Source: a virus. From it: 21,389 nucleotides of DNA. The DNA is taken from the IMG/VR virus record IMGVR_UViG_3300046467_001976, positions 1 to 21,389 of that record. One strand, 5' to 3'. Under the pieces are notes generated by a model. The model was not told the DNA's origin, searched no databases, and saw only the letters and a list, made by a program, of their open reading frames with translations. The translations under genes were made by a program, and so were the position numbers. Below, in pieces: positions 2,453-20,942 of this stretch; the stretch's first letter is position 1, and every line of letters starts with the position of its first letter.

Positions 2453-2941
2453 CTAACTACGGCGCTTACTGGGCTTATTCTCCAGCGCCCACTCAATGGC
2501 CTGAACACCGGTCAGTTTCTCCGGGTTCATCACCGGAGTTGGCTGGCCGGACATTGCGCCCACCTTGCGAGCCCTGTCAAATGCCTCAGCATCGGTATGA
2601 GAACCAGAATCAGGTGCCGGGCCAAGGAAATCCTCAACCTGACGATCCAACTCATCGCCCTCAAAACCTCGCCTTGCTAGCAGGTCCCTAGCCAACTCCA
2701 TTTGCTGACCACGACGATCCTCATGGATCTCCCTGGCCCGCTCCTCAAGTTGGCCTATGTCGACGCCGTCCAGATCCGTGGGCTTCACAAGCGACAAACC
2801 GTGCTGCTGAATAACCTCTAGGGCTTTCAGGCCAGTAAGTTCGCCTCTAAGCGATTTGTTCTGTTCTAGCGTTTCCTCCAACTTTTGCCGGAGGGTGCCT
2901 CCCGACATCTCAGAAATCGCTTCGTCGGTATCGAATGGCAT
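2453..2941 (-). CDS. Scaffold-like protein, 162 aa
   Basis: The protein is highly charged and helical, with a probable coiled coil at residues 17-40 (LRQKLEETLEQNKSLRGELTGLK) and further helices with many Glu, Arg and Gln. The C-terminus is basic (ENKPSKRRS), as expected for a scaffold that binds capsid subunits through a positively charged helix-turn-helix tail. It lies immediately upstream of the major capsid gene with a 43-base gap, which is the position of scaffolding proteins in most tailed phages. Start: AGGAG six bases before the ATG at 2941. A promoter candidate and leader hairpin precede it, so scaffold and capsid may be transcribed at a higher level than the upstream giant genes. 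The segment GEELDRQVEDFLG-like near residue 95 and NPEKLTGVQAIEWALE near the end are unassigned. Scaffold is an inference from composition and order. Confidence 0.68.
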   Translation of the reverse strand: MPFDTDEAISEMSGGTLRQKLEETLEQNKSLRGELTGLKALEVIQQHGLSLVKPTDLDGVDIGQLEERAREIHEDRRGQQMELARDLLARRGFEGDELDRQVEDFLGPAPDSGSHTDAEAFDRARKVGAMSGQPTPVMNPEKLTGVQAIEWALENKPSKRRS

Positions 2942-2998: not shown

Positions 2999-3028
2999 AA
3001 TCTAAGTATACATGACACGGCGTGTCAA
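2999..3028 (-). promoter_or_regulatory. Candidate sigma-70-type promoter for scaffold-capsid genes
   Basis: On the minus strand a perfect TTGACA (3028-3023) is followed after 18 bases by TAGATT (3004-2999; four of six matches to TATAAT). A further AT-rich TATACT lies inside the spacer. This is the largest gap in the gene block and precedes the two genes expected to need the highest expression. The -35 overlaps the TGA stop of the upstream gene and a 15-bp palindrome. The -10 is imperfect, so confidence is limited. Confidence 0.4.
3013..3027. promoter_or_regulatory. 15-bp palindrome overlapping the promoter candidate (operator-like)
   Basis: TGACACG-G-CGTGTCA has two perfect seven-base arms around a single central base. 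It overlaps the -35 hexamer and the stop codon of the 622-aa gene. Dyads of this size at a promoter often bind a dimeric regulator. Its TTGACACG half is shared with the repeats at 3127-3144 and 6911-6928. Confidence 0.4.
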
Positions 3029-4893
3029 GAGCGGACGCCGGTCGCTCCTCGTCCTGGTTGTGCCAGACGGGCCCCACGGGAAGTAGTAGCAAACCCCCCA
3101 GGGGTACGGGCCCGTGCCAACTCGCCTTGACGGGCCCGTGTCAAAAGATCAGTTTCAGGGGCCTGGCTCAAGAACACTGCGTTCTCAAACTCCTCCTGGC
3201 CAAACGTGGCGGCACCCTCACCCTGGACGTTTGTCCTGCGAATCATGGATTCAATCAGCGAACCCTGGTTCACGAAAGACCCGTAGCCCTTCAGCGCCTT
3301 AGCCCGGTCAATACCCGCCTGCCTGAACTCCCCCACACGCTCCATGGACGGGGCCACCAGGCCCTGTTCCGCTGCGGCACCGCCGACCAGAGCGAACTGG
3401 AACGCTTCTATCAGTTCATCCAACTCCAAGAACGAGTCACCGTCCGGGTCCCCCAAATACAAGGCCTCCACCAGGCCCTGGGCCTGCTCTGTGGAGAGAG
3501 AGTTGATCCTAGCCAACGCACCTTCCGGTAGAGCCCCCTGCGCTTGCAGGGTGTTCAGGGTCTCAGCGGTCGCCTCCAAAGCGGCTTCCGTGGCGTTAGC
3601 CACCCAGGTGGAATAGTCAAACTCTGCATCCAACAGGTTCTGGTTGTACTGCCCAATCAGCGTCTTTGACGCTTCCGGGTCAACCACGGCCTGGTACAGG
3701 TCATCTACGGAAACATCCATGTTGGCGTAAGTCTTGAACGTCGCCCGCACATGGGCAGAGTTGTTTACCAGGTCCCTGTAAGTATCCAATCTGCTTGTGA
3801 GTTCGGTCGTTGAAATACCTCGCTCCATGAGCGTTGCGTAATCCACCGGGTTCTCCGTGGCAGCATTGAAGATTTCCTTACCACCAATAGAGCCAGCGTC
3901 AATCAGCGCATTCCGATACTCCCTGACCTGATCAACATACGACTGTTCATCCACGAACCGCATGCGGCCCTGCTCGTCGGTGATGCTGGGGAACGTGGCC
4001 CGGTACTGCGGGGTGTCACGAACCTGTGCGATCAGAACGTCATTGTCTATGCCCTCTGTGACGGCCTCCCTGATCATTGCGCCCAGGTTCAAGTCCTTAG
4101 CCCACGGGAAATGCTTTAGTGCCCATTCCTGGGCGGTACCGGTTTCAGCAAAAAAGTCAACTGCGTTTGAGTCTTCCTGCGTTATGACTTCCAACGCATC
4201 GGCCACCATCGTCTGCTCGTTCCCGCCAGACACCGGAGCCACGAAGGGCACTCCGGCCGGGTACTGGTCGGGGTCCAACCCCATGTCCCTCATAGCCTGA
4301 TTCTGGACACCCCTCGCCGAACCGACCGTCATGCCGTCGGCCCCGCCGACGACCTTTCTTTCCCAATCATCTATCTGCTGCCCATGTGGCATGAACGGGC
4401 TGCCCGCAGCATTTCGATCCGTGTAGAGGGACTGGTCGCTCCAAACATTGAAGTTGGTACTTTCCACCCCTTGCCCCGCACCCGCAGCCTGTTCACCCCA
4501 CCAGGAATGTGACGGGTCCGCCTGAGCGGCAGGAGGCACCACAGACCCGTAGTTCTGATACGGGGAAGTACCCCCCGAAAGTCCCTCCGCCGATCCGCCC
4601 GGCGTCAAATACCCCAGGTCCATGCCCCGCTGGGCAGCGCCGCCGTACATACTGACGACACCAGTCCAGTCCTCCACCCAGTTGCCGGTGGCCGGGTCCG
4701 GGAACCCCGGCACCCCGCCAGGGCCGCTACCAGAGTTCGCTCCCCGGTACTCTGCGCTGAACTCAGAAGTCGTCCCCGTGGCGTTACTGGTGTTGATCGG
4801 GTTCACATCATCGTTCGGATCAGGGTGGACCTGCCCCGCATAGATCGCAGCGAACGTCACCGTCTTCCCGTCCTCATTCACCCATGTGGCCAT
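3025..4893 (-). CDS. Helical internal-virion-like protein with EF-hand-like loop, 622 aa
   Basis: The first 230 residues are Gly/Pro/Ser/Asn-rich and look poorly ordered (for example SGSGPGGVPGFPDPATG). The remainder is alpha-helical. It includes IAQVRDTPQYRATFPSI, then DEQSYVDQVREYRNALIDAG, LMERGISTTELTSRLDTYRD and YANMDVSVDDLYQAVVDPEA, a helical arrangement I associate with large virion proteins of actinobacterial and environmental phages. Residues 482-493 (DPDGDSFLELDE) match a 12-residue EF-hand calcium loop with Asp at 1, 3 and 5 and Glu at 12; position 6 is Ser where Gly is usual. Helices flank the loop (STEQAQGLVEALYLG and LIEAFQFALVGG). The C-terminal tail is basic and repetitive and contains LTRARQ at 584-589. 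The ATG overlaps the previous stop as TAATG, with GAGGAGG eight bases upstream. The protein lacks cysteine. A DNA-ejection or core protein is plausible by position; no homologue is named. Confidence 0.72.
   Translation of the reverse strand: MATWVNEDGKTVTFAAIYAGQVHPDPNDDVNPINTSNATGTTSEFSAEYRGANSGSGPGGVPGFPDPATGNWVEDWTGVVSMYGGAAQRGMDLGYLTPGGSAEGLSGGTSPYQNYGSVVPPAAQADPSHSWWGEQAAGAGQGVESTNFNVWSDQSLYTDRNAAGSPFMPHGQQIDDWERKVVGGADGMTVGSARGVQNQAMRDMGLDPDQYPAGVPFVAPVSGGNEQTMVADALEVITQEDSNAVDFFAETGTAQEWALKHFPWAKDLNLGAMIREAVTEGIDNDVLIAQVRDTPQYRATFPSITDEQGRMRFVDEQSYVDQVREYRNALIDAGSIGGKEIFNAATENPVDYATLMERGISTTELTSRLDTYRDLVNNSAHVRATFKTYANMDVSVDDLYQAVVDPEASKTLIGQYNQNLLDAEFDYSTWVANATEAALEATAETLNTLQAQGALPEGALARINSLSTEQAQGLVEALYLGDPDGDSFLELDELIEAFQFALVGGAAAEQGLVAPSMERVGEFRQAGIDRAKALKGYGSFVNQGSLIESMIRRTNVQGEGAATFGQEEFENAVFLSQAPETDLLTRARQGELARARTPGGFATTSRGARLAQPGRGATGVRS
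3103..3120 (-). repeat. Palindromic repeat copy B' (TTGGCACGGGCCCGTACC)
   Basis: This copy has a perfect ten-base palindromic core ACGGGCCCGT. It agrees with the copy at 3127-3144 at 14 of 18 positions and lies 24 bases (eight codons) from it in the same reading frame, encoding LARARTP. Confidence 0.5.
3127..3144 (-). repeat. Palindromic repeat copy B (TTGACACGGGCCCGTCAA)
   Basis: TTGA and TCAA flank a CGGGCCCG core. The copy inside the 507-aa gene at 6911-6928 is identical at 16 of 18 positions. It encodes LTRARQ in the C-terminal tail of the 622-aa protein. The repeat may act at the DNA level or as a peptide motif. Confidence 0.5.
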
Positions 4894-6833
4894 TAGGTAA
4901 TCCTCCTCGTACCGCCACCGAACCCGAAAGTGCTTTCCATGTTCTTCATCACATCAGCAGTAAGCACCTTGGCCCGCTTAGACGACTGCCACTCTGGTTT
5001 CCCACGCAGCCTCGTCCTGTATTCGGTCGGGGACTCCCCCGAAGTCAAAGCCGTCATCAGATCCTCATTGCCTAACGGGTGAGCCGCATTTATTGGGGAT
5101 TCCATCTCGCTGTTATGAATGTTCACCCAAGGGGTGGCGTACTCCGTGGTACTCAGCAGGTCCGGTTTCCCAGGGAACTTCGATGAAGCCGTAGCCCGAA
5201 TGTCGTCCATCACCTCCACCATGGAAATCTCGTTCGACATCAGTTGCGTAGCCAAGTCCTGCACATCCCAAGAATGCAACGCTGGGTCTAGCCCCCACTT
5301 GGAGTAAGCCTCCTGCAACTGCTGGACCTTCGCATCACGCTGCGATTCATACGCTCCAGCGGCCACTGCGGTGTCGTGAACGTGGATCTTCCAGGCGTTA
5401 TTGACCCCACCTGGCATGTCCCCCGCATACTGTTTGATGGCGTCACCGACATCCCAATGGGAGGCCTCACCCCGGGCGATCCTTCCCGCCCACTCCAGCA
5501 GGGTGTACCCACCGACAACCAGGGTGGTAGCGGGGCGATCAAACGTGCTGGTGTAATGCTGGAACTGCTTGTAAAGACCGCTCTGGGAATCTTCCAAGAC
5601 CCGCTGTTCCATGGCCCGACGTTCGGCCTGGGTAGAAGCCTGCCAGTTTGCAACCAGGTTTGTTCTTGACTGCCCCCAGTCAGTTGCCTGGATCTGCAAC
5701 TTGACGTATTCCATCGCCTCCAACAACGTCGGGTTGGCGATGACCCGGGCAATGACCTGCTGGACGCCAGAGTCCTCAAGGGCGGCAGTACCGGCCAGGA
5801 ACGCTTCGGTCACCAGTTGATGGATGACCTCGTTGATCGGCAACGCATCGTCGTCTGGTGTGAGGAAGAAACCTTGGTCGTTGAACCTGACCTTGTTGAC
5901 CGGAATGATTTCTCCGGTTTGTAGCCAGTTCTCGTTACCTGAAACGGCCTGATCCCAGGTGTCCCGATCCATCGGGCTGGCGGTCGCACCGGTAGGTAGC
6001 CCGTCAATCTGCCAAACAACTGCGACATTTTCCCCGACAGCAATCGGGTCATCCGTGAAAATCGGAAGGGCGTAATAGAAAGTGTCCGGGGTGGGTTGGT
6101 AAGCGGTGAGGTGCCCAGGGGCGTCCCCGGGTTCCTTTATCTGGAAGAACATCCCTTCGGACGTTCCAAGGCTTTCGATTTGTGCAGTGACCTCGTCGGA
6201 GGCGCCTGTTTCTGAGGTCGTTTCTGAGGTCGCTATGCCCAACGCACCCAGGCGCTTGGTGACAGCGGTCAGAACACCCCCCTCGCCATGGTCGGTGAAT
6301 CTTGTCGGGTCACCAAGCCCGCTATAGCCACCGGTACTCCAGGTCTCAAACATGCTTGCGACGCCGGGGTCGGCAGCGATGCTGGCCAAGTTGGACCCGC
6401 CCTCGCTGATCAGGTGCTGCCATAGGGCGTTAACGTCCTCAGCACCCATTTTGTCCCTGAGGGTCCTTACGGTTGCGTCCACCCCCTGGTCCCAGTCCCG
6501 GTACGACATCACCCCGTGGTCGTTGATGATGGTCATGCCAGCCGCCAGGCTGGCTTCCTCTCGTTTGGTCTGAATCTCCGCCGGGGAAAGGTCTTGCCCC
6601 CTGTAATCCCTGATTTCCCCTGCCAGTTTTGTGGTGTTGAACGGGTTGAACCTGGGCCCGTCCACCCGGCCCACCGGGTTCTCCTCCATCATCCAAGTGA
6701 CCAGGATCATCATGTTGCCCTCAGTCACCGGGGCGTTCAAGCCCTCCAGGACAGCGACAGCAAACTGGGTCATCTCATCAGACGACAACCCGTTGATTTG
6801 CAACCCCGACAACGCTGACAACTCCATTGTCAT
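4893..6833 (-). CDS. Virion-associated peptidoglycan hydrolase (lysozyme-like domain) fused to helical tail, 646 aa
   Basis: Residues 20-130 resemble a lysozyme/transglycosylase-type domain found in actinobacterial and phage proteins. W47 is followed by acidic E50-E51 (candidate catalytic Glu), then FNPFNTT at 62-68, GVMSYRDW at 107-114 and GVDATVRTL at 117-125. This matches the W..E..A..NPLNTT...GV..Y.....G..AT..TL pattern. A short Thr/Ser/Glu linker around residue 205 (TSET twice) leads to about 430 residues of mostly helical sequence. That part contains a stretch starting VIANPTLLEAMEYVKLQIQA and a C-terminal TEYRTRLRGKPEWQSS-FGFGG segment of a type seen in large phage virion proteins. The enzyme probably opens a local hole in the cell wall during DNA entry, as the T7 internal protein gp16 transglycosylase domain does. 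I chose the ATG at 6833, not the upstream GTG at 6875, because it overlaps the previous stop as TAATG and has GAAAGG ten bases upstream. The protein has no cysteine. Confidence 0.7.
   Translation of the reverse strand: MTMELSALSGLQINGLSSDEMTQFAVAVLEGLNAPVTEGNMMILVTWMMEENPVGRVDGPRFNPFNTTKLAGEIRDYRGQDLSPAEIQTKREEASLAAGMTIINDHGVMSYRDWDQGVDATVRTLRDKMGAEDVNALWQHLISEGGSNLASIAADPGVASMFETWSTGGYSGLGDPTRFTDHGEGGVLTAVTKRLGALGIATSETTSETGASDEVTAQIESLGTSEGMFFQIKEPGDAPGHLTAYQPTPDTFYYALPIFTDDPIAVGENVAVVWQIDGLPTGATASPMDRDTWDQAVSGNENWLQTGEIIPVNKVRFNDQGFFLTPDDDALPINEVIHQLVTEAFLAGTAALEDSGVQQVIARVIANPTLLEAMEYVKLQIQATDWGQSRTNLVANWQASTQAERRAMEQRVLEDSQSGLYKQFQHYTSTFDRPATTLVVGGYTLLEWAGRIARGEASHWDVGDAIKQYAGDMPGGVNNAWKIHVHDTAVAAGAYESQRDAKVQQLQEAYSKWGLDPALHSWDVQDLATQLMSNEISMVEVMDDIRATASSKFPGKPDLLSTTEYATPWVNIHNSEMESPINAAHPLGNEDLMTALTSGESPTEYRTRLRGKPEWQSSKRAKVLTADVMKNMESTFGFGGGTRRIT
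6209..6232 (-). repeat. Two tandem 12-bp units encoding a TSET-TSET linker
   Basis: TTTCTGAGGTCG (plus strand) occurs twice in direct succession. It encodes the short Thr/Ser/Glu linker that separates the lysozyme-like domain from the helical part of the 646-aa protein. Confidence 0.6.
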
Positions 6834-8356
6834 TACTGAAACGCCTTTCGCCAAGCGGCCATACGACGGTACCAAGCACCGCCCCTGGACGACTCATCTG
6901 TCAAAGCGACTTGACGAGTCCGTGTCAAGTCTCCTGTTTCCATCCCGGTCTCAGTCGCCATGCGGCTCTCCATGCCAGTCAAAGACTGGCTGGCACCAGC
7001 GAAACGACCGATCCACTCCTCCTCGCCCATATCAGTGGGCTTGTTGCCGTACAGGCGCTGATAATCGCCGGTACCTCTGACCGCCCCCAAGGCTTCCACG
7101 TTCATGTTGGGGACCTCAGTGACCCCCGTCGCCCCAGGCGCAGAGGACCCGTTGTCCCACACGGGAGGCATCGACCGGGACGCACGAAGTTTCGCCCCGA
7201 ACTCCGTAACCATGTTGTCTAGTTCATTGTCGCTGAGAGGCTGCAACCGCCAACCCTGGGCCAGTGTCCTCACTGCCCCCCTCATAGCGTCCCCCTGGAC
7301 CTCCACCGGGCCCCTAGAGGCCAAGTCATCCATGTAGCCAGCGAACCTGAAAGATCCGATCTGGTCCTGGGCGTCGAAAGCATCCATCCCGGCAAGTTCC
7401 TGCTGCCAGTTCGGGCCCAGAATCGAAATGATCTGACCCATCTCCTCACCGGTCAGGTCCGATTCGGCGGTGCCGTCGCCAATCCCCATCACACGGTTAC
7501 CTAGTTGCTGCCCACCGAACGTGAAAATCTTGGCCTGCACATGGTTATACCCCCGTTCAATGTGACCCGCATACGCCCTGACAGCACCCTGGAGAACCGT
7601 CCTCTCCTCCGCAAGATTTGTTCCCTGGTCCGTGGACACGACCCGGGTGTCCCGGTGGCGTTCCAACGCTGACGTAGCAATGTCAAACAGGGGATCCAAC
7701 TGCATGCCCTGGGTGGCTGCTGTTTCCAACAGGCCCGTGCCGTGCGGCCCGCTCAGGTCCAAGAAATCGACACCGTACTTTGTGATCAGTCTCAACACAT
7801 TGTCGTAGTCGAAGATCCGGTGGTCCCGCTGCCCAGGCGCACCAACTTCAATGTAGTTCAGTGCAGTGCCGGTCTCCGACGCCATCCTGTTGGCGGCAGA
7901 CGCCAGGGTCGGTGTCCAAAGATCATTGTCTTTGGCCCCGGACCACCAGGCCATGAAGGGCAGCACGTTGGCTGCCGGTGCGGCGAAGAAGACTTTCTTG
8001 TCGTCAAGGGAGAGGCCACTGGGGATGTAACCGAAAATGTCGGCTCCCGATCCCGCCGCATAAGCGGTGTACCAATCTGGGAGGTCTTCGCCCCGGTCCT
8101 GCATCGTGGCGATGATGCTGGTCGCCATTTGCACCATGTAGTCGTACTGCTGCTCGTTTGCTTCCAGTAGGCCTTCAGCACCAGGAACATTGGTTGGGTG
8201 GACCGGGTACACCATGGACGAATACTTGTAGAAGATCCCCGGATCGAACGCCCAAGGGTTCGACTGGCCGCCAACGGTGTCTAGGGCGGAGTAGTCGGTT
8301 ATCTTGGGGCCATCCCAAGTGGTAGTGGGGGGAGGAGTAGTGGTAGTAGTACTCAT
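6833..8356 (-). CDS. Unrecognised internal-virion-like protein, 507 aa
   Basis: I do not recognise a named family. The N-terminus is a low-complexity MSTTTTTPPPTTTW encoded by ACT/ACC triplets, followed by a mixed helical protein with aromatic-rich patches (PWAFDPGIFYKYSSMVYPVHP near residue 35; VFFAAPAANVLPFMAWWSGA near residue 125). Residues 280-345 (LTGEEMGQIISILGPNWQQ onward) look helical. The basic C-terminus (SSRGGAWYRRMAAWRKAFQ) follows LTRTRQ at 477-482, a motif shared with the 622-aa protein tail. No transmembrane segment, catalytic motif or cysteine is visible. The ATG abuts the TAA of the 2092-aa gene with GAGGT seven bases upstream, and its own TAA overlaps the next ATG (TAATG). 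This suggests fixed stoichiometry with its neighbours in one virion subassembly. An internal core or ejection protein is the best guess from position; a head or connector component is also possible. Confidence 0.68.
   Translation of the reverse strand: MSTTTTTPPPTTTWDGPKITDYSALDTVGGQSNPWAFDPGIFYKYSSMVYPVHPTNVPGAEGLLEANEQQYDYMVQMATSIIATMQDRGEDLPDWYTAYAAGSGADIFGYIPSGLSLDDKKVFFAAPAANVLPFMAWWSGAKDNDLWTPTLASAANRMASETGTALNYIEVGAPGQRDHRIFDYDNVLRLITKYGVDFLDLSGPHGTGLLETAATQGMQLDPLFDIATSALERHRDTRVVSTDQGTNLAEERTVLQGAVRAYAGHIERGYNHVQAKIFTFGGQQLGNRVMGIGDGTAESDLTGEEMGQIISILGPNWQQELAGMDAFDAQDQIGSFRFAGYMDDLASRGPVEVQGDAMRGAVRTLAQGWRLQPLSDNELDNMVTEFGAKLRASRSMPPVWDNGSSAPGATGVTEVPNMNVEALGAVRGTGDYQRLYGNKPTDMGEEEWIGRFAGASQSLTGMESRMATETGMETGDLTRTRQVALTDESSRGGAWYRRMAAWRKAFQ
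6844..6849 (-). promoter_or_regulatory. Shine-Dalgarno GAAAGG deciding the start at 6833
   Basis: GAAAGG lies ten bases before the ATG at 6833, inside the end of the 507-aa gene. Together with the TAATG overlap it supports this start over the in-frame upstream GTG at 6875, which would add 14 residues and overlap the previous gene by 43 bases. Confidence 0.55.
6911..6928 (-). repeat. Palindromic repeat copy C (TTGACACGGACTCGTCAA)
   Basis: This copy matches the one at 3127-3144 at 16 of 18 positions although it lies in a different gene 3.8 kb away. It encodes LTRTRQ in the C-terminal tail of the 507-aa protein. Flanking bases extend the outer dyad to ACTTGAC and GTCAAGT. Confidence 0.5.
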
Positions 8357-11300
8357 TTATCGGACCTCTGCGCTGATGGGGCCATAGTCCCTGGCCCAGA
8401 TGCGATTATAGATCGCCAGGAAGTCCGGGTCGACACCCACAGCGTAGAGGGCGGCCTCCCGAACCTTCTCATGGTGTTCGGGTGGTGCGAAGTCAATGTC
8501 CGTCAAAGACCCAGGAATAGCATCCCCCAGAGCCTTACGCTCTGCGGCCAGCCAGTTTATAAACGGAACGACCGCATTCTTGTCGACATCCTGAACTGAA
8601 AACTCCTCTCGGACTTTCAACTCGTTGGCGCTGGCAGCCGAATACACCATCTCCGCCCCCCACGACGGGTACTCCGCCAGCAGTCTCGCCTTCTCCCCAT
8701 CCAACCAGTTCTTCAAGTCCACAAAGTACGGGTTGCTCGTCCTGTAGACAGCGGAATAAGGAAGACCCATGCCGTGAAGTTGGGCTCTGGCCCCGTCCCT
8801 GGCAGCGTTCCATTCGTCCCAAGCCCGCTCGTTCTGCTCACGTTTGGTCACATGATGCGGGCTGGTAATAACCTCCGCCTGCTCAAAGAAATCCCCGACC
8901 AGGTGACCGAAGTCCGCCCACAGCGGGAACATCCGCTTCACGTTGTATTGGATGGAGTTCATGTCGTCGGCGTCCTTGATGCTCACAGCGTTCGGCATCA
9001 GAGCCGACACCAACGGGCTCACCATCAGGTTCTCAGCGGTCTCATCAGAGGCACCGAACTGTTTCGCCATCCCGCCGACGGCGGCTTCTGCTGCCTGGCC
9101 GATAAACGGTGCGTGGTGCAGGGTCCGTATGAATGGTGCGTTGGGTCCGCCAAACTCGCCCAACGACAGGCCATATGCGAACAGGTTCGACCGGCGCATC
9201 TTCCCCAGGATCGGCAGGTAGGCCTCGTACTTCTCATGGAGGTCGTACTTCTCGTCCATCATTTCGTAAGTCTTCATCATGTCGTGCAGGATCACCGCAC
9301 GGCTGTAGTCCTCCGTCATGTAATCGGCAAAGTGCCCCACGGTCTTCTTCATAAACGAGAACGGGAAGAACACCATGTTGACGGACTGTTCCGCCGCTGA
9401 ACGGCCAGTCAGGCCGTAGGTGTAAATGCTTCGTGCAGCGTCGTAGGCGTCGTCGGGGTTCACTCCGGTCTGTAGCAACTGGCCGTAGGTGGACGACATC
9501 CACGACTGCGGAGAGAACCCCATGATTCCCACTGATGTGAACCAGCGGCTCATGTTGTCGATGTTTTCCCAATCGAAGTCCCCCCGGCCCTTCGCCTGCT
9601 TCATAAATGAGTTTCGGACACGGGTCCATTCGTCATTAGCCGCCTTGCTGGCGGAATCTAAGTCCATGCCTCTCTGGCGGTACCCCTTCGCTAAGGCCCG
9701 CCGGAACGACGTTGGTGACTGGTTCAGTTTCATACCCTTGGCCACATCACTGCCAACAACCTGCGACAGGGTTAGGGCCTCTGCGTAACGGCTCATGTCG
9801 AAGATTGGTGACAGCGAGAACCGCAGGTAGTCACGCATGTTCACATAGGCGTCACCCATGTACGCATACTTTTGCCAATCGGTCTGGCTGAACAAAGCCT
9901 GTGGGTTCCTGAACGGCAAAGCCTCCCAGGCCTTACCCCTGACCAGACCCCCGCCGATGGCTCCAGCGGTACCCCACGCCGCAGCGCCTTTCAACGCACC
10001 GCTGACACCGCCCTCCTCATACACACCTTCCTGGTAGGCACCAGCACCAGCACCAAGGCCACCGCCGACCCCAGCCCCTCCAAGCCCCATGGCCGGTTTG
10101 TCACGCAACCGGGCGATGTCGGTACCAACGCCAGAGGTCGTATCGCCAACTGAAGCCCAGCGAGAAACCTCTGGGGTCAAGCCCGCCAACCTGCGGGCCA
10201 AAACCTTGGAGGCAGCGTTCCCCATCAAGGCTGCCGGGACACCCGCCAAGACGCCCCACCTTGGAGTTACTCTCAGTGGGCCAGCATTGAAACCCGCTGC
10301 GTCAGGGTGTTGTTCGGATGCCATCGCCGTTGCACCCGTCGCAGGCAACCAGGTACCCATCCAGGTTCCTGCCCGGGCACCGTAGGTGCGTCCAAACCCT
10401 CTCCGATAACCGGATTCGGTAGCGAACCGTTTCATGTTCTCCGGCAAAGTACGGAACAACGTGAACAGGCCCTTGACCCCGTCGCCTTCGTTCCGCATGA
10501 AATCGCCCGCCCGGTGCTTCCCCAGGGTCATAGTCATGTCCAACAGGTTCGGCCTGGACCGCAAGTGGTCCTCCAAGTGGGCCAGCCCACGAACCCACAG
10601 CCCGTCCTGGAGTTTCCGGGCCTTCTTCAACCCCTCCCAGATGGCGTGGAACTCCTCCTCCGAATAATCCAACGCCATGATTCTCTTTTTCATCTCGCTG
10701 TACCGGCGGGCCCCCAAATCAGGCACCGAATAGGGTGTACGAGAAGCCTTCAACCTGGTACCTATCTTGGACGGGCCGGTCTCAAAGCCCAACTCCACCG
10801 CATCCAAGGCGATCTGATTCTGCTGGTTGATCTCGTCAACCATGCGCTGCAAGTTGTCGATGATCTGCCGCACACCGTTACTGTTCGGGTCCCCTGAAGC
10901 GAACTCGTCCCTGATCCCAGCAGCGGTCTTCACCCTCTGCTGCCCCTTGTAGACCGGCAGGGTAGGTGCCGGGACCATGGAGGCGTGGGAGGCCAAGGCC
11001 CCCGCCAGGGTCGATTTCGTTGTTCTCATCCGAAGGTTGCTCAACCAGTAAGGGTTCTGACGGCTCAACCCCAACGTCAACTTGCTGGTGAGATGCGACT
11101 GGTGCAGCCCCAGTTCTGGCATCAGGTTCCCCAACTTGCGGGGATCGGTGAACGACACCCCATGGACGACCTTGTACCCCTTGTCCGCCATGGACTGCAC
11201 AAATGGGGCGTCCAAAGTTCTGGGATCTATCTCAGCAGCCATCCAGTTTGATTCCTTCGTCAACTGTTTGGACCGCTTGCGAGCGGTTTCCACCGCATCG

Positions 11301-14300: not shown

Positions 14301-14635
14301 GACACCTCCAGGGGCCTGTCCCCACCCTGGATAGCACTCATCCACCTGGTCAAGAACCTGGCCGATGATTCCCCCCCGCCCGGTTGGGCCGGGTCGATCT
14401 GTGGAACGTCTATCTGCTGTGCATCCAGGCTGGGCGGCAAGCGGATAGGCGACGGCGTGGGGGGTGCTGCGATTTCGTTAGCGGCCCCGTAGAGAAGCGA
14501 TTCCAGATTCTCTGACTTCATCCCCGGCAAGATCGCCAAATCCAACATCACTTGCTCTGGCATCTGGGGCATGTTCCAAGACCCGTCGATATGACGCAGG
14601 GTTGTCAAGTTGCGGTCGATCTGTTCCAAACTCAT
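8357..14635 (-). CDS. Giant virion-associated protein with glycine-zipper segments, 2092 aa
   Basis: No whole-protein homologue is recognised. Several hydrophobic or glycine-zipper segments could insert in or span a membrane: about 255-275 (NWFLILSGVGNTFLSV), 330-380 (YLVGGIGGQYTGN), 1458-1485 (GVLAGVPAALMGNAASKV) and 1516-1565 (GLGGAGVGGGLGAGAGAY, GAAAWGTAGAIGGGLV). The C-terminal third is aromatic-rich and helical (DYLRFSLSPIFDMSRYAEA near 1605; FMKKTVGHFADYMTEDYSRA near 1750; WDEWNAARDGARAQLHGMG near 1940). Residues 690-870 hold a His/Trp/Asp-rich region (YHHWRPLRHGEVPD, VVHNHNAKRDGTIADLI) whose meaning I cannot assign. There is no cysteine in 2092 residues. Its ATG overlaps the stop of the 86-aa gene (ATGA). 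Position after the portal, size, membrane-active segments and the lysozyme-like neighbour suggest a packaged or ejected protein that helps DNA cross the envelope. A polyvalent conflict protein is the alternative. Confidence 0.75.
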   Translation of the reverse strand: MSLEQIDRNLTTLRHIDGSWNMPQMPEQVMLDLAILPGMKSENLESLLYGAANEIAAPPTPSPIRLPPSLDAQQIDVPQIDPAQPGGGESSARFLTRWMSAIQGGDRPLEVSETNNQAVFDWKRRAVQDGYIEMDDAELTDPRWRPEYNSINYDMTRDRMERDFMGGEEGALSIRETGNIFDDWLSPSGLARAAIEADLAWDYGEIKDEFMDWPSKARKWWSDVSSVPSPGGAGPIDVAKSTMDMVTGPLDEALVPALNWFLILSGVGNTFLSVKGLSLGAASVTGTKLATGMEATRRAKGIGPIARALTPAQRFETGFAGQAGAAGTRLTNFGRPSGLSNYLVGGIGGQYTGNVVGRGAAAVGQAMPGVAVSGTSSLAEQAVWMGSKMQQWRNLRAVQAGKVGFQNVWKTGLGLRGIEAVRPGDREDRGDGGFALEDVGIVSELRDKYLYPTSMTNIAGDLVFDLMFTPYTLFEPGTIKSVMRGAGMIKNRSLHATARVLPSVRKHLAAKGHLGSRAIATFHDASLDFLRRTDPDLAAEYDKMAQAEGPGAALSKVFFNGSDDDFGGAYVHALYSIGIEHAARQTANLLGGVKENYSRNPIYNTVKAFLEGQTRYLDPHDMYGNLAEIASQVEIGGAVGQAAKALDDDTIIQNELAKLVDQFLETSAEASARGGNVVDGHVRLIRQSDPNSLDYHHWRPLRHGEVPDVDARITDLDLEEYASFHGRPLDEVKDFFNNPEPGIPGGLRVDLSPSFEGRHRVHSWGEVQAGTARRWDSAKSRWMWDTEIIAPGDELIPKDRVGTLKGVVHNHNAKRDGTIADLINNLESGNPNLAPGLHDMIPHTGNIPARTGGAKGYSPTVPALHNALTDDFLERFSHWNEYVAASDQLGEEISRMGMDKAQYLKALSHGNRRLGLFPFAKDDPLRPRPYAGHLFGESAGDYSYIEWINQGMYSPLVRALDQSKGRYHLARMGTVTKQEAIEFTAQIKYRYDMLRTIRRFKTWGLIGAVDEAVAEVVQNAGGKLGQRAAANFIKQAMADEAAAGERVLSRAFGGKTQGKFSQLAEAVMSLGDDSPLNMQGLEDLLVEELTSFANSPEWVARFGLKELADAGHDAVETARKRSKQLTKESNWMAAEIDPRTLDAPFVQSMADKGYKVVHGVSFTDPRKLGNLMPELGLHQSHLTSKLTLGLSRQNPYWLSNLRMRTTKSTLAGALASHASMVPAPTLPVYKGQQRVKTAAGIRDEFASGDPNSNGVRQIIDNLQRMVDEINQQNQIALDAVELGFETGPSKIGTRLKASRTPYSVPDLGARRYSEMKKRIMALDYSEEEFHAIWEGLKKARKLQDGLWVRGLAHLEDHLRSRPNLLDMTMTLGKHRAGDFMRNEGDGVKGLFTLFRTLPENMKRFATESGYRRGFGRTYGARAGTWMGTWLPATGATAMASEQHPDAAGFNAGPLRVTPRWGVLAGVPAALMGNAASKVLARRLAGLTPEVSRWASVGDTTSGVGTDIARLRDKPAMGLGGAGVGGGLGAGAGAYQEGVYEEGGVSGALKGAAAWGTAGAIGGGLVRGKAWEALPFRNPQALFSQTDWQKYAYMGDAYVNMRDYLRFSLSPIFDMSRYAEALTLSQVVGSDVAKGMKLNQSPTSFRRALAKGYRQRGMDLDSASKAANDEWTRVRNSFMKQAKGRGDFDWENIDNMSRWFTSVGIMGFSPQSWMSSTYGQLLQTGVNPDDAYDAARSIYTYGLTGRSAAEQSVNMVFFPFSFMKKTVGHFADYMTEDYSRAVILHDMMKTYEMMDEKYDLHEKYEAYLPILGKMRRSNLFAYGLSLGEFGGPNAPFIRTLHHAPFIGQAAEAAVGGMAKQFGASDETAENLMVSPLVSALMPNAVSIKDADDMNSIQYNVKRMFPLWADFGHLVGDFFEQAEVITSPHHVTKREQNERAWDEWNAARDGARAQLHGMGLPYSAVYRTSNPYFVDLKNWLDGEKARLLAEYPSWGAEMVYSAASANELKVREEFSVQDVDKNAVVPFINWLAAERKALGDAIPGSLTDIDFAPPEHHEKVREAALYAVGVDPDFLAIYNRIWARDYGPISAEVR

Positions 14636-14892
14636 TCTTCCGACACCTCCAACCCTTTGCTCATACCCATAAAGTCCCTCACCATCTCCGGTGTCACATC
14701 ATCATCGGGGGCGAAAACGACCCCCTTGTCTCCCCGCACGGGATCAAAGTGCATTTCTGCCCCGGAGAAAATCTGATCTGGTATCCCGTCAGGGAAAGCG
14801 TCGCAGGTCTGCGTCCCTTGTGGATTCCCTAAGCCGGGCTTCCAATACTTGCACAGGCGACAGAGCCCTCCAACATCTCCGTAACTACGCAT
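14632..14892 (-). CDS. Small Cys-rich putative zinc-binding protein, 86 aa
   Basis: C11 and C14 (CRLC), C30 and H48 could form a zinc site. The body reads CDAFPDGIPDQIFSG, then MHFDPVRGDKGVVF. The pattern C..C...C.AFP.GIP..I..G...H..P..GD.G..F is widespread in small bacterial and phage proteins of unknown function, some of them encoded beside portal or head-morphogenesis genes. The gene overlaps the preceding stop by eight bases (ATGCGTAG) and the next start by four (ATGA), so it is firmly part of the operon. Within this block it stands out: three cysteines in 86 residues, while its two giant neighbours have none in almost 4000. The overlaps make a non-coding or shadow frame unlikely. A structural zinc fold is inferred; whether it is packaged in the virion or acts during assembly is unknown. 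Confidence 0.75.
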   Translation of the reverse strand: MRSYGDVGGLCRLCKYWKPGLGNPQGTQTCDAFPDGIPDQIFSGAEMHFDPVRGDKGVVFAPDDDVTPEMVRDFMGMSKGLEVSEE

Positions 14893-17800
14893 CAGGCAAC
14901 GCCTTTAGGTCTTCTTTCGACCATACAACTTTACCCCTACGGCGACCGGTCTTACCCAGCCCCGACTCTTTCGTCAGGTAGTTCAACCATGGGAGCATGC
15001 CGCCCTCATATTTCGGCGGGGGGATTGCCTTCGCCGGGTCCGCACCCGTTAGCGCAACCGCCCTCTGCGATGTCATGGCGTCGTGCTCCCACTGGCTCAT
15101 TGCGGTGTCCCAGAACCCGATCTCCGTAGGCCCACCCCAAGGGTGTCCAAACCCGGCCTCCGCCACCGTGGTCGTTTTCCCGATCAGGGCGATACCCGCA
15201 TCGGACTGGTACAGCAGATCCCAGGCCATGTCCACGATTTCGATAGCCATTGGTGGGGCGTCCGGGCCCATGATCATCACCAAGTCGAACGATTCGGAAA
15301 TCGTTTCAACCCAGGTCCCTGCGGCGTACCTACCCAACTGGCGGCGGACTTCTCCGACACCACCGTGTCGGGCGATGACCTGGGCCAGTTGTTCCCGATA
15401 CACATGACCAATACCGGTTTCTATGATGGCGTGGTGGACGGCGTGGCCGAACTCATGTATGGCGGTCATGGAACTTCCGATATCGCTTACCTGTTCTGAC
15501 ATTTTCGCATGCCGCAAGGCAATCTTTGAGGCGATAACGGTGTCGTGGCTGAGCCTCAGGTACCTGGTGTGCCACTCAGGATCGCCCTGGTACCGGGTCG
15601 CTGAAACGTCAACACTGATCCCAGTCCCAGAAACCAGGTTCCCGTCCTCGTCCATCATGTGGTTCAGCCCCCGACCAGTGACCTTTGAGGAGTATTCCGG
15701 CTGAATGAACGACCCCAAGGTGTTCCCACGGTTTACCGCCGCTGAGTTTCTTGCACCGACCTGTATGGAACCCAGAAGCGCCACAACACCAGGGAACATC
15801 ACTCCCCCGTGGCGTTCACGAAACCAACTAACCCCCGGCAAATCTCGCATAGCGTTCGCTGGCACGACATGACCGGGACGTTCGTTCAACGCCCCTATCA
15901 GCCCCAAAATATCCATCACCAGTTTGTGGTGGACCTCCTGGTTCGGCATCCGATACCCGGCCAAGATGTTGACGGGGAGACCTTCAACCAGGGAGTAGTC
16001 CCCGATCAGTGTCCGGGCGGTTTCCTTGTAAACCTTCTGCAACTTCTTGTCTAGGGTATTGCCCTTGGCGGTGATGGCTGTGGCCCCGCCCTCGTCCCCC
16101 GTCATCCTACTATTCTTGCCGGTGGCGTCGATCAGCCAGGACTCCAACACTGTTGGGTCTCCGGTGTTGTAATACTCCAGGACGGTCTTGTCTAGGTCCG
16201 CTTTCTCGTCGTGCCAGTCCCGATAGGAAATGTCCTGTCCGGCCAGGCCCCTTTGGAGAGCCAACAGGGGCCCGGTGGGGGAAATGTGTCCGCTGATTGA
16301 CGCTCCCAGCGGGTGATTCCGCAGAGATTGACGTATCGCTCCCGGTGTGGCCCCGTACCGGAGCAGCAGTTCGACCGCAGCGAACACATCGTTGATTTCA
16401 GCAGCGTGCAGGGGGTCGTGAATGTCGGTCGGTTCCAACTTCAGTGTTTCTTGTGCTACCGGCGTGCCACTGCCCCCTTGGCCCGCTTCGGTCGCCACGT
16501 CGCTCACGGTCGCTATTTCCCGGCTTACTGCCCGGTCGACGGCCAGGGGTCCCGGGTATCCCAGAGTTGTTTCCATTGTCGAAGGAACAGCCAGGGCATC
16601 GTTGGTTATCCCTGTGATGGACCCACGGGCCCCCACCTTGAAGATTGCCGCCAGACGGAACCCCGGCCAAAACTCGCTGGCCCGCAGGGCGTCCTCTGAC
16701 ACCGCCATCAGGATCGCTGGCTGACCGGTGGTCGGGTCCTTGGTCACGGCCAGGGCCCTGATGGATTCCCCGTCCACCTTGGAGGTCAACAGTTTCTCCG
16801 TGTTGATATCCAGGTTCTCCCCGGCACCAATGATTGTTGTTTCCCCATCCAGAACAACCGCATTGTCGGACTTGCGTTCAACCGTTGCATTGTGCCGGGT
16901 TGATTTCGACGGGAAGGTTCCGTGAGTCAGATCCAACCGTTGTGCTTCAGATGTCGGAACCCATGTCGTGTAGTAGTTCTCGTCTTCCACCAGGTGTTCG
17001 CTGTGCTGGGCCCGTTGCGTCATTCGTTCGTTACCGTTCGTGAACGAATACTCTCCGACCTGCGTCATGGCGTGGCCGGTCGTTTTCCCTGTCGTGTCGG
17101 CGTACAACCCGCCGTGGAAATACCCGGAAAGGCTTACTGTTGACGGGGCCCTGTCAAGATTCTCCCAAAGCCTCAGAACCATCGCTGGATCGGGAATGGA
17201 TCCCAGTTCAACGATTAGTTGGGTTCGCTTCGTCGGGGATGATGCCTCCGCACGCCTGGGGCCCCCAGCAACCGGCGTGGTCTCGTCTGCTGCGAACTCC
17301 ATGGAGAAGTCTGTTGATCCAGGGTCTCCTGTTATCTGAAAGAGTGTCCCGTCCCCACCGGACTTCATGGACACCCCGTCTGTAGTAACGGGGGTGAACA
17401 TGCCGTCTGCGTGATGGCCGTCCTGCGTCCAGAAAGTCCCAGCGTTTGCCATGAACTCAGATTGGGCAGTCAGACCAAACACCAAGTGGACCCGTCGGGT
17501 TTCCCCCGCCTCTCCGTCCCTCACATAGGTGGGTATGGGGGAGAAGTTGTTTCGCTTCAACCGGTTTACCAGACGACGGTCGTCGGGGATCACCGCCCAG
17601 TTCTGAGTGTTCAACGGGTTCTCAGACGCCCGCCTGTGAAACGCTGTTGATGCTTCCGCCTCAGTAAGTTTTGCTGACGACCGGTGGTGCCCCGCCGTGT
17701 GGGTTATGGGGGCTTCCGTAACATCCAAGGGGAAACTGTTGGTACTCAGCACTTCCCGGACAGCGGTCGTGTCGCCCTGGGCGACTTCAACCACGATGTA

Positions 17801-20509
17801 GTTGCCGGGGGAATGAACGTCTGGTACCCCTGGCCGACTAGAAGGGTCGGTCACGGTTCGGAACTCGCTCGCTGGCGACGTGGACAGGGAGGCTTCCTGG
17901 ACAACCGCCAGGTCTGCCCTCCTGGAAATACGAGGGATAAAGCGCACCGGGTCCAGTTTCGTGGGCCGGGGCTTTGACCTTGCGTCCAGGGTCAAACCCT
18001 CTTTCTTCCCGGTGAACAGTTTCGGTCGGGCGGGGATAGGTCTCGCTGTCCTCAGTTGGTCTACGATCCCGTCAACCGTTGGGTCTGCGTAAATGCGGAG
18101 CCCTGAAGGACCACTAGCGACCAGGATCCCCACCCCAGGCTCAAAGGCGTGGGTGTCAGCGACCGTGAATACGTCCAAATGCCCGGACATGGGGTCTATC
18201 AACGCACTGTCTAGGAGAGCCAACGAATCGGTGATCGACGGTGATGTCGGGCTACGGCCTTCCAACTCTTGAAGAACCCCGTCGTGCCATACAACTGTCC
18301 GGTCCCCTCTCAGGGATGAGGACGCTTCCATGACCGGTTGCCAAATCCTGGCCTGGGCTTCCACTGCGCTGATCCCCATTAGTTCCCCGGTGATGACGTG
18401 CGCTCTGACGATGGCGTCGTACATTCTTTCCGCTGCGAACATTGGGACCGATGCGCCTGATGGCACCGACCCCCCCATGATCGCCAAGTCGTCGTCAATC
18501 TCTCCAATGTCGTCAAGGCGGGCCACCAGGTCTTCCCCGATAACCGACCGCCAACCGGGCAGGCCAGTCAACCAGTTGGTCTTCGGCACCACCTGGGTGG
18601 CCTTCATCCAGGGTGCTTCCGCACTGTGGTAGAACCCGGTGATGGCCCTGAAGGCGTGCGTATCGGCGGTGATGACCGCCCGACCAAGCGCACTGTTTTC
18701 TGGGGTTCCTTCCGGGAACAATCCGTTGTGCATGAACGACATCGTCTTGAGCATCCGCAACGCTTCCACCGGGTTCATCCCAGCGAGGATCTGAGACACC
18801 TTCGCTTGCCCGGTACCCAGCGCAGAGCCGAAACTCTTGAAAGAAGTCACCGGGGGGAACCCCGCCAAAGTCCTGACTTCGTTTAGTTCCTCAAGAATGC
18901 CTGGGGGGATGTTCTCCCCGGTGTGAGACTTGAGAGATCCGTGTTTGGTTTCCAAGGCCCCCAGGATCGCCCAGTTCACGTTGTCTGGGTCCCAAGCCGC
19001 CCGTGGAGACAACGCAGAAACAATCGCCCCCACCTGGTATTTCCTCAACCCGTACCTTTCAGCAACCACTTCGATCAGTTTGTGGAACTGCGGGTACCAC
19101 TCCTTCGCTCTCTCACGGTGAACCTCCGACACCGCAATAGAGGTAACGCCGTCTTCTATCGCCATCATGGAGCGAACGAAATGGGAAACCAGGGTGTTGT
19201 AGTCCATGCTCCACAACTGGCGTTCCATCCCCTCCGGGTCCAGGATCACTCCGTTCTCCGGGTCCACATACCGACTGTTTTGCGTAACGTGGATGTTCAT
19301 TGTCCCCAAAAGGCGACCGTCAGGTGTGGAGTAAAACGAGTTCCATTTCATGTTCGGTGTCAGGGTCAGGTCCGGGCCGCCATGGCGCATCACGATCTGA
19401 GCCAGGTCGCCCAGTTGCGAAACGAACAACGCCAAGTCCGACGTACCCTGGCCTGAATCGACCGCATACCTGAACAAGGAACCATCCTCAAAACTCTCTG
19501 AGAGTTTGGTCATTGCGTCACCGTGTATCAGCCCGGCGTCTTTGGCCTGGGTGTATATAGCCAGTGCATGGGTGGCCCCCCCGAAGATGTCCGGGTCCAA
19601 ATCCATAGACCAGTCCGTGAGAGACTCAGCGAACATCTGCCCTGTGTGAGTTGTGACCTGACCGTCAACTGACTCGTACAGCCCGGTGTTGATCATCAGG
19701 GTCCCCAACTCAACCAGGAACGCAGCGAAGGTCGCACGGGGGCCACCACCGCCCAAGCCCGGTGTCTGGCCCCACACCTCATTCCCGGTGACTGAGCCAA
19801 GGGTCGCCGCCTGCGTCTTGGGTGAGTCGAAAAGGGCGTCAATGAGTTGTTCCGTCGAACGGGCGGTAGCCACCCCTACATGGCGGGGGGCTGAGATGTC
19901 GCCCCGGGTGAAAGCCAACTTCTCCTGCTCAATACCCGTAGTGGCTTGTGCCGCCACCAACCTCGCCCGGACCTGATCCACGCTTTCCCGCAGGGTGTCC
20001 AGGGTGACCTTGTTCTTCATGTCAATCGTTGGGCGATCCGAAACCACCGCTGGTGCCATACCCGCAGTGGGTGTTCGGTATGTTGCCGCTAACCGTTCAT
20101 AGGCTTCTTCGGCCTGCTGGTGGTAACGATTCCGCATGTGAGACTGAGCCCCCATGCTGATGGTGGCCGCTGCACCACCAAAGAGACCAGCCCCAGCGAA
20201 GAAAGCCAAACCCCGCTCCAACGGGTCCATGTCGTTCTCAAAGTTCATGCCCTCCCGCAAGTCCATCACGTCGCCCACAACGGGGGTGAACTCAATCATT
20301 CCCCGGAGAGAGTCGGACAGGGACAGGCCGGTTTCTGGCCTGCTGCCAGTTATCCAGTTCGGCATGAACATGCCAGCCGTTGCGCCCAACCCCTCCAGGG
20401 GGTTGCGGCCAAAGGTCTCTAGGAGAGTTTCCCGGTCTTGCTGGGGGGCCGTTACTCCCGGGTCTACTACCGCCGGGTCTTCAACAACGTGTTCAGGACT
20501 GTGAGGCAT
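14885..20509 (-). CDS. Giant multidomain virion-associated protein with glycosylase-like domain and HEFGH metallopeptidase, 1874 aa
   Basis: Visible parts in order: a hydrophobic Gly/Ala segment at 101-118 (LAFFAGAGLFGGAAATIS); a helical region to about 460; a domain at about 463-640; a long mixed region rich in Thr/Ser; and a C-terminal zincin-type domain. The 463-640 domain has RAKEWYPQF, ALSPRAAWDPDN at 499-510 and VITADTHAFRAITG with D616-T-H618. This matches a phage family with AALSP..W..N and VTVDTHA..R motifs that I recall as DUF7178-like and helix-hairpin-helix glycosylase-like; the name is uncertain. The C-terminal domain has HEFGHAVHH (H1685, E1686, H1689) and a downstream YAAGTWVETISESF, where E1735 or E1739 is the likely third zinc ligand. 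No cysteine occurs. The ATG overlaps the previous gene by 17 bases with GGAG ten bases upstream. Roles could include prohead or self-processing, or action inside the host after ejection. Confidence 0.78.
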   Translation of the reverse strand: MPHSPEHVVEDPAVVDPGVTAPQQDRETLLETFGRNPLEGLGATAGMFMPNWITGSRPETGLSLSDSLRGMIEFTPVVGDVMDLREGMNFENDMDPLERGLAFFAGAGLFGGAAATISMGAQSHMRNRYHQQAEEAYERLAATYRTPTAGMAPAVVSDRPTIDMKNKVTLDTLRESVDQVRARLVAAQATTGIEQEKLAFTRGDISAPRHVGVATARSTEQLIDALFDSPKTQAATLGSVTGNEVWGQTPGLGGGGPRATFAAFLVELGTLMINTGLYESVDGQVTTHTGQMFAESLTDWSMDLDPDIFGGATHALAIYTQAKDAGLIHGDAMTKLSESFEDGSLFRYAVDSGQGTSDLALFVSQLGDLAQIVMRHGGPDLTLTPNMKWNSFYSTPDGRLLGTMNIHVTQNSRYVDPENGVILDPEGMERQLWSMDYNTLVSHFVRSMMAIEDGVTSIAVSEVHRERAKEWYPQFHKLIEVVAERYGLRKYQVGAIVSALSPRAAWDPDNVNWAILGALETKHGSLKSHTGENIPPGILEELNEVRTLAGFPPVTSFKSFGSALGTGQAKVSQILAGMNPVEALRMLKTMSFMHNGLFPEGTPENSALGRAVITADTHAFRAITGFYHSAEAPWMKATQVVPKTNWLTGLPGWRSVIGEDLVARLDDIGEIDDDLAIMGGSVPSGASVPMFAAERMYDAIVRAHVITGELMGISAVEAQARIWQPVMEASSSLRGDRTVVWHDGVLQELEGRSPTSPSITDSLALLDSALIDPMSGHLDVFTVADTHAFEPGVGILVASGPSGLRIYADPTVDGIVDQLRTARPIPARPKLFTGKKEGLTLDARSKPRPTKLDPVRFIPRISRRADLAVVQEASLSTSPASEFRTVTDPSSRPGVPDVHSPGNYIVVEVAQGDTTAVREVLSTNSFPLDVTEAPITHTAGHHRSSAKLTEAEASTAFHRRASENPLNTQNWAVIPDDRRLVNRLKRNNFSPIPTYVRDGEAGETRRVHLVFGLTAQSEFMANAGTFWTQDGHHADGMFTPVTTDGVSMKSGGDGTLFQITGDPGSTDFSMEFAADETTPVAGGPRRAEASSPTKRTQLIVELGSIPDPAMVLRLWENLDRAPSTVSLSGYFHGGLYADTTGKTTGHAMTQVGEYSFTNGNERMTQRAQHSEHLVEDENYYTTWVPTSEAQRLDLTHGTFPSKSTRHNATVERKSDNAVVLDGETTIIGAGENLDINTEKLLTSKVDGESIRALAVTKDPTTGQPAILMAVSEDALRASEFWPGFRLAAIFKVGARGSITGITNDALAVPSTMETTLGYPGPLAVDRAVSREIATVSDVATEAGQGGSGTPVAQETLKLEPTDIHDPLHAAEINDVFAAVELLLRYGATPGAIRQSLRNHPLGASISGHISPTGPLLALQRGLAGQDISYRDWHDEKADLDKTVLEYYNTGDPTVLESWLIDATGKNSRMTGDEGGATAITAKGNTLDKKLQKVYKETARTLIGDYSLVEGLPVNILAGYRMPNQEVHHKLVMDILGLIGALNERPGHVVPANAMRDLPGVSWFRERHGGVMFPGVVALLGSIQVGARNSAAVNRGNTLGSFIQPEYSSKVTGRGLNHMMDEDGNLVSGTGISVDVSATRYQGDPEWHTRYLRLSHDTVIASKIALRHAKMSEQVSDIGSSMTAIHEFGHAVHHAIIETGIGHVYREQLAQVIARHGGVGEVRRQLGRYAAGTWVETISESFDLVMIMGPDAPPMAIEIVDMAWDLLYQSDAGIALIGKTTTVAEAGFGHPWGGPTEIGFWDTAMSQWEHDAMTSQRAVALTGADPAKAIPPPKYEGGMLPWLNYLTKESGLGKTGRRRGKVVWSKEDLKALPDA

Positions 20510-20942
20510 CTACCATCATCTCCAGGACGATCTTTGCCCATTCTCTTGTTTCCTTAGAAACATCCTGGCTGCTTGACAGAGAATCCAGGAGAGCAAGCCT
20601 GGCCTGGGAAATGTCCGCTGGGCCTGCGCCCTGGGCCATCTGGGGTTGGGGAGCCACCGGTCCTCCCTGTGTCCCCCCGGGATGCGTCAACACGTCCGGC
20701 AGCCCAGAAGGGCCACCACCCGTGACGGGGGGCATCCCAGAAGTCGGCTTGTTCGGTGTTGCCACCGCACGTTCGGGTTCGGGTGCCTGCTGAGGTCCAC
20801 CAGGACCCATAGGGCCCCCACTGGACGGCAACTCTTTCTTCAGCCGCTCAACTTCAGCCTTCTCACCGTAGGTGCCGCCCTCTGGTTTATTGAGCGACAT
20901 ATTCTGAGTCGGTGTCTTGTCAAGAGAGGTGGGATCAGCCAC
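20493..20942 (-). CDS. Pro/Gly-rich small virion or assembly protein, about 149 aa (start uncertain)
   Basis: The protein has a charged helix early (TYGEKAEVERLKKELP), a long low-complexity Gly/Pro/Gln stretch (MGPGGPQQAPEPE, then GGPSGLPDVLTHPGGTQGGP), and a C-terminal helix (DISQARLALLDSLSS, then ETREWAKIVLEMM). Small proteins with a 'YGE(+)..L..L' start and a disordered middle occur directly after the portal gene in several actinobacterial phages, function unknown. Three starts are possible: TTG at 20957, GTG at 20942 and ATG at 20900. I prefer the GTG because GTGGCTGA overlaps the portal stop by eight bases, the same overlap style as at the 86-aa gene, but none has a convincing Shine-Dalgarno sequence. 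The stop overlaps the next gene by 17 bases. No cysteine. It may be a chaperone or linker for the giant protein that follows. Confidence 0.6.
   Translation of the reverse strand: MADPTSLDKTPTQNMSLNKPEGGTYGEKAEVERLKKELPSSGGPMGPGGPQQAPEPERAVATPNKPTSGMPPVTGGGPSGLPDVLTHPGGTQGGPVAPQPQMAQGAGPADISQARLALLDSLSSSQDVSKETREWAKIVLEMMVDASQS

Follow-up and report, generated by a model that had tools for sequence, protein, structure and literature searches.

Cysteine is absent from five large proteins of a probable ejection block in a short-tailed phage related to Beephvirinae

The N4-like virion RNA polymerase (gp50) is a giant ejected virion protein without cysteine, and this absence has already been reported and tied to tail or envelope passage (PMC3715699, PMC3915230, PMC4837373, PMC5795418). 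T7 gp14, gp15 and gp16 and P22 gp7, gp16 and gp20 are large virion-module proteins that include a wall enzyme and show extreme cysteine depletion. Here we analyzed a block of five large cysteine-free proteins in the virus record IMGVR_UViG_3300046467_001976 (IMG/VR), a contig of 21,389 bp taken as a whole and called the window below. In contrast to gp50, the proteins of this block show no RNA-polymerase homology, and five proteins lack cysteine instead of one. The block differs from the T7 and P22 sets by the absence of sequence similarity, by its location between portal and scaffold and not after the tail genes, and by the presence of two proteins of about 2000 aa. Among described phages, the Streptomyces phages of Beephvirinae have the nearest portals (26-27% identity). 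Abafar, a member of this group, has podovirus morphology by electron microscopy (PMC11536984).

The five proteins, of 1874 aa (14885..20509), 2092 aa (8357..14635), 507 aa (6833..8356), 646 aa (4893..6833) and 622 aa (3025..4893), are all encoded on the minus strand and together contain no cysteine in 5741 residues. This count had been made in a first-pass annotation of the sequence and proved exact, as did the coordinates and lengths. The same annotation expected dozens of cysteines; according to our two estimates, the five genes should encode about 89 (position-specific base frequencies of those genes) or about 57 (0.99% cysteine, the level that the related genome G007 shows outside these genes). 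Assuming 0.5% cysteine, the probability of finding none is still about e^-29. The triplets TGC and TGT never occur in frame, while frames +1 and +2 of the same DNA hold 186 and 196 of them, and 1098 of the 5741 codons are a single point mutation away from cysteine. The remaining 19 amino acids, Trp, Met and His included, are found at 0.77-1.33 of control levels. Since these triplets are frequent out of frame but absent in frame and the other residues are ordinary, the five proteins specifically avoid cysteine and the effect is not one of composition. As also claimed by the annotation, small neighbouring genes do use cysteine: the 86-aa protein has three, and the decoration, 178-aa (first given as 172 aa) and fibre proteins have one each. 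The scaffold (162 aa), the capsid (312 aa), a 154-aa protein and the C-terminal piece of the portal likewise lack it, but they are short and none of them is individually significant.

As the window is the entire contig, the genome-wide contrast was drawn from relatives. Scans of viral contigs identified the whole block in nine contigs and in one contig of an Acidimicrobiales metagenome-assembled genome (L240, JANYHQ010000491.1). In these ten relatives, the block contains no cysteine in 47,857 residues, with GC contents of 0.42-0.69 and identities down to about 28%. In the same genomes, the terminase carries 2-9 cysteines, the portal 2-5, and a small gene within the block has 3 conserved ones. 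Thus neither homologues with normal cysteine numbers nor genomes equally poor in cysteine, the two outcomes that would have contradicted the first-pass annotation, were encountered. Because the block is free of cysteine over this range of GC content and at such low identity while other genes carry it, its avoidance is kept by selection across deep divergence. The hosts are probably Actinomycetota, since the nearest described relatives are Streptomyces phages and one relative lies in an Acidimicrobiales genome, with the caveat that phage contigs are sometimes misbinned.

Two Beephvirinae phages, FlowerPower and Immanuel3, show the same gene order, in which terminase and portal are followed by small genes, a giant, other large proteins annotated as peptidase and glycosylase, and then scaffold and capsid. 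The 622-aa family matches FlowerPower gp13 (hhalign probability 94, E 1.3e-7), gp13 having been kept out of the family alignment, and the C-terminal domain of the 646-aa protein matches the FlowerPower gp12 glycosylase (hhalign E 3.6e-7). The corresponding block is also nearly devoid of cysteine, with a single residue in the five proteins of FlowerPower and the same in Immanuel3. The one cysteine of FlowerPower falls in the DCSG active-site motif of an NlpC/P60 domain, so it seems that cysteine is retained only where the chemistry requires it. The two groups also differ: Beephvirinae have one giant (1635 aa) and the window phage has two, no Beephvirinae counterpart was identified for the 1874-aa protein, a tRNA cluster is absent from the window, and identity is low. 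The profile of the 2092-aa protein gave no match to the FlowerPower giant gp9, and their pairing therefore rests on position and size only. Judged from these sequences, the portal identity and the shared layout suggest that the window phage may belong to a sister group of Beephvirinae.

We read the five genes, with a probability of roughly 0.78, as the ejection (internal virion) block of a Beephvirinae-related podovirus, from whose proteins selection has removed cysteine. The block sits between the portal and the scaffold and capsid genes, with the giants upstream of the capsid gene; this position and the Beephvirinae layout make it part of a short-tailed phage's virion module. In relatives, the set includes a peptidoglycan-cutting domain, located in the 646-aa slot or in an equivalent block gene. 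Thus, the homologue in G011 is a Phage_lysozyme2 protein (PF18013, E 5e-22), L240 carries SLT_3 at the corresponding position (E 5e-13), and the domains at this place comprise Phage_lysozyme2, SLT and M23 plus SLT in relatives and NlpC/P60 plus SLT in FlowerPower. The 646-aa copy of the window itself had no above-threshold Pfam match. It is because large proteins with wall-cutting domains in a podovirus virion module resemble ejection sets that we favour this reading.

Other identities were considered and set aside. No Pfam or PHROG polymerase match was obtained for any of the five proteins, and an N4-like virion RNA polymerase was rejected. A tape measure was rejected as well: the genes of both giants precede that of the capsid, the window copies have no tape-measure match, and tape-measure families were not found among the scanned genes of the related contig G007. 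Comparison of the 646-aa model with the T7 gp15-gp16 complex gave an E value of 8.7, which is not evidence.

According to the ejection reading, the block proteins would be packed in the head and exit through the portal and tail ahead of or together with the DNA. They would then break through the host envelope and extend across it; one slot would supply an enzyme that cuts the wall, and a zinc-protease motif would come with the 1874-aa protein. A free thiol may be costly for such proteins, which would leave the virion partly unfolded and in many copies and would refold or assemble in or across an oxidising envelope. Wrong disulfides formed there could block delivery, and selection would remove cysteine; the reason for this cost is something we infer.

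The first-pass annotation had proposed the absence of cysteine as a signature of ejected proteins and named T7 gp15 and gp16 and the N4 virion RNA polymerase for comparison. Our results showed that T7 gp15 and gp16, N4 gp50, gp51 and gp52, P22 gp7, gp16 and gp20, phiKMV gp35-37 and P-SSP7 gp15 and gp16 all contain no cysteine, and that T7 gp14 has one only at position 2. Epsilon15 gp14-17 have 5 in 2574 aa. In crAss001, the cargo proteins gp45, 46, 47, 49 and 50, as assigned previously (PMC10172136), contain 7 cysteines in 7478 aa, 4 of the 7 lying no more than about ten residues from a terminus, and the muzzle protein gp44 contains 10 in 1371. Tape measures behave similarly, with none in lambda (853 aa), HK97 (1089 aa), T4 gp29 (590 aa) and Mu (690 aa) and one in P2 (815 aa).

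The pattern extends to distinct homologues in viral contigs, where all those of T7 gp15 (44/44, down to 34% identity), P22 gp20 (68/68), P22 gp16 (60/60), N4 gp51 (12/12) and N4 gp52 (14/14) are cysteine-free, and the families of T7 gp16 and N4 gp50 have 0.09 and 0.07 cysteines per 1000 residues. Control families have 7.6-11.5 (terminase), 6.5 (P22 portal), 5.8-26 (adaptor/nozzle) and 1.2-4.5 (capsid) per 1000; across families, portals, terminases, adaptors and nozzles mostly have 4-26. In a panel of six phages, picked by hand and excluding the scaffolds, which are also nearly cysteine-free, the values were 0.64 per 1000 for ejected, 7.1 for other virion and 13.5 for non-virion proteins (within-genome permutation p <= 5e-6). 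Conversely, a count over the whole or partial genomes of seven well-studied phages gives 13 cysteine-free open reading frames of at least 350 aa, 11 of which encode ejected proteins or tape measures. The effect does not stem from enzyme class, because unpackaged RNA polymerases of the same family are rich in cysteine (13 in 673 aa for the N4 cytoplasmic RNAP1+2, 12 in 883 aa for T7 RNAP) while the N4 virion enzyme has none in 3500 aa.

Most residual cysteines of ejected proteins are found at the termini or in a leader that is later removed. Homologues of P22 gp7 (L077, 9369-10058, and its homologues) often carry one cysteine, nearly always as residue 18. P22 cleaves off a leader of 20 residues that includes this position, and the mature ejected protein would therefore be cysteine-free. 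The chain-end cysteines of the crAss001 polymerase cargo (L081; gp47, gp49 and gp50) are at positions 5, 5, 2339 of 2341 and 2404 of 2412. In the gp14-like proteins of T7 (L075, 27728-28318), epsilon15 (L082, 11586-12128) and P-SSP7 (L244, 5956-6558), the sole cysteine is residue 2; it is kept in nearly all T7-like homologues of gp14, where a functional N-terminal cysteine is possible. P-SSP7 also encodes an uncharacterised 568-aa protein without cysteine (L244, 20360-22066), which by the same rule may belong to the virion or be ejected.

Several results weigh against the ejection reading and against cysteine absence as its general mark. The block gave no PHROG, Pfam or tblastn match to the T7, P22 and N4 ejection proteins, and the low-confidence structure predictions (AlphaFold) of the 646-aa and 622-aa proteins, with pLDDT of 63 and 52, had no significant fold in the PDB. 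Ejection of these five proteins is itself inferred, which limits the reading. Scaffolds of T7, P22 and N4, the N4 capsid and some other capsid proteins, and the P22 needle are poor in cysteine though they are not classical ejection proteins. Epsilon15 gp15 has 2 cysteines in 842 aa, so the rule is not universal. Finally, some injected proteins do carry cysteine, at about 4 per 1000: T4 Alt (3 in 682 aa), P1 DarB (9 in 2255) and two subunits of the phiKZ virion RNA polymerase (5 in 1451 and 2 in 490). In phiKZ, the 2237-aa tail protein gp181 (L242) has one cysteine only, compared with 5 and 2 in these subunits. Alt, DarB and the phiKZ subunits are delivered by contractile tails. Thus the proposed signature stands for the known podovirus sets and fails as an exclusive or universal one. 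Its sensitivity is high for podovirus ejection proteins and its specificity fair, and it is no law for all injected proteins. Overall, we consider it likely that selection generally keeps cysteine almost entirely out of the proteins ejected by podoviruses into the cell envelope and out of most tape measures, less so out of proteins that contractile tails inject, and that the pattern is strong enough to reveal unknown ejected proteins from sequence alone.

As to why cysteine is excluded, an effect of chance, base composition or codon usage has a negligible probability: nothing was found in its favour, and it is refuted by the out-of-frame triplets and by relatives that are cysteine-free from GC 0.42 to 0.69, as the first-pass annotation had supposed. 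It is also unlikely that these proteins lack cysteine simply because internal or assembly proteins rich in helices do so, independently of ejection. The nearly cysteine-free T7, P22 and N4 scaffolds and the scaffold and capsid of the window would fit this explanation, but ejected enzymes (virion RNA polymerases, wall hydrolases, the zinc protease) lack cysteine as much as helical proteins do, unpackaged polymerases of the same family are rich in it, and the crAss001 muzzle (10 in 1371 aa) contrasts with the cargo (7 in 7478).

Two causes related to delivery are left, passage through the channel and the oxidising periplasm. Both were named by the first-pass annotation and had been proposed for the N4-like polymerase (PMC3715699, PMC3915230; also PMC5795418); the avoidance itself is confirmed, and either may cause it. 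Exclusion could act mainly while the proteins are unfolded, or assemble, in the oxidising envelope of the cell, and not in the narrow channel itself, an explanation to which we give somewhat less than an even chance. It is supported by Alt, DarB and the phiKZ subunits, at about 4 cysteines per 1000 against almost none in the podovirus proteins that build the envelope channel or pass across it, and by the oxidation of thiols in the Gram-negative periplasm and at the exterior of Actinobacteria (PMC3715699, PMC9974433). However, the contrasts are few and lack phylogenetic control, and the tape measures T4 gp29 and Mu, which lie in contractile tails, have no cysteine. The proteins might instead avoid cysteine as they unfold and refold through a portal and tail channel of about 35-50 angstrom, where any disulfide would block them wherever it formed. 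Partial unfolding has been proposed for the N4 virion RNA polymerase and the crAss001 cargo (PMC12633501, PMC10172136), and tape measures, which lie inside the tube, have 0-1 cysteine; yet Alt, DarB and the phiKZ subunits traverse the tail tube and keep theirs, and passage through the tail channel is therefore not sufficient. This second cause we hold possible but rather doubtful. On account of the contractile-tail exceptions we place a little more weight on the envelope than on the channel, with the cysteine-free contractile tape measures pointing the other way. As Actinobacteria oxidise exported proteins (PMC9974433), actinobacterial phages cannot separate the two.

All clear genes of the window are on the minus strand, and their listed order is portal C-terminus, 154 aa, 1874, 86, 2092, 507, 646, 622, scaffold-like 162, capsid 312, decoration 143, 178 aa and fibre. 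The portal part (20935..21387) is cut at the contig end and is near-identical to the C-terminus of the 604-aa G007 portal, which matches phrog_104 portal (E 2.9e-13). The Pro/Gly-rich 154-aa protein (20493..20957), whose counterparts of 133-146 aa also lack cysteine, is a possible extra member of the block. The likely ejected 1874-aa protein has a Pfam DUF7178 domain at residues 464-627 (E 5.5e-10) and, near its C-terminus at 1685, an HExxH zinc-protease motif that is kept in the window and in all five relatives inspected; its family alignment holds 9 sequences. In L240 a shorter, 979-aa version retains the motif. Between the two giants, and inside the block, lies the gene of the 86-aa CxxC...C protein (14632..14892), whose three cysteines are conserved across the window and its relatives and which probably binds metal. 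The 2092-aa protein, also likely ejected, has a family alignment of 9 in which identity to the window copy is as low as 28% and one relative comes from the Acidimicrobiales genome.

Neither giant had a tblastn match in described phages (50,697 phage records), and PDB profile searches gave no significant match. The positional counterparts of the 507-aa protein, likely ejected as well, are of 506-558 aa and all lack cysteine. An upstream TTG start would extend the 646-aa protein, the putative peptidoglycan-hydrolase slot, to 660 aa. The 622-aa protein is helical, likely ejected and matches phrog_8424 (E 6.8e-8). The scaffold-like protein (2453..2941) precedes the capsid gene and has a weak family match only. 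The major capsid protein (1471..2409) matches phrog_212 (E 5.7e-57) and the 143-aa decoration-like protein (1028..1459) matches phrog_5707 (E 2.7e-5).

The N4 case was already known, and we found no published statement of the general rule among 5.39 million open-access papers; subscription papers were outside the search and priority is uncertain. By term counts, cysteine is not mentioned in a review on ejection proteins (PMC8954989) or in the preprint on the N4 polymerase structure (PMC12633501). Ejection proteins are hard to recognise since their sequences diverge quickly, and a simple count of cysteines points to candidates in phages that have not been cultured. Podovirus proteins have almost no cysteine and those injected by contractile tails about 4 per 1000, a contrast that makes the question of which step penalises thiols genetically addressable in T7.

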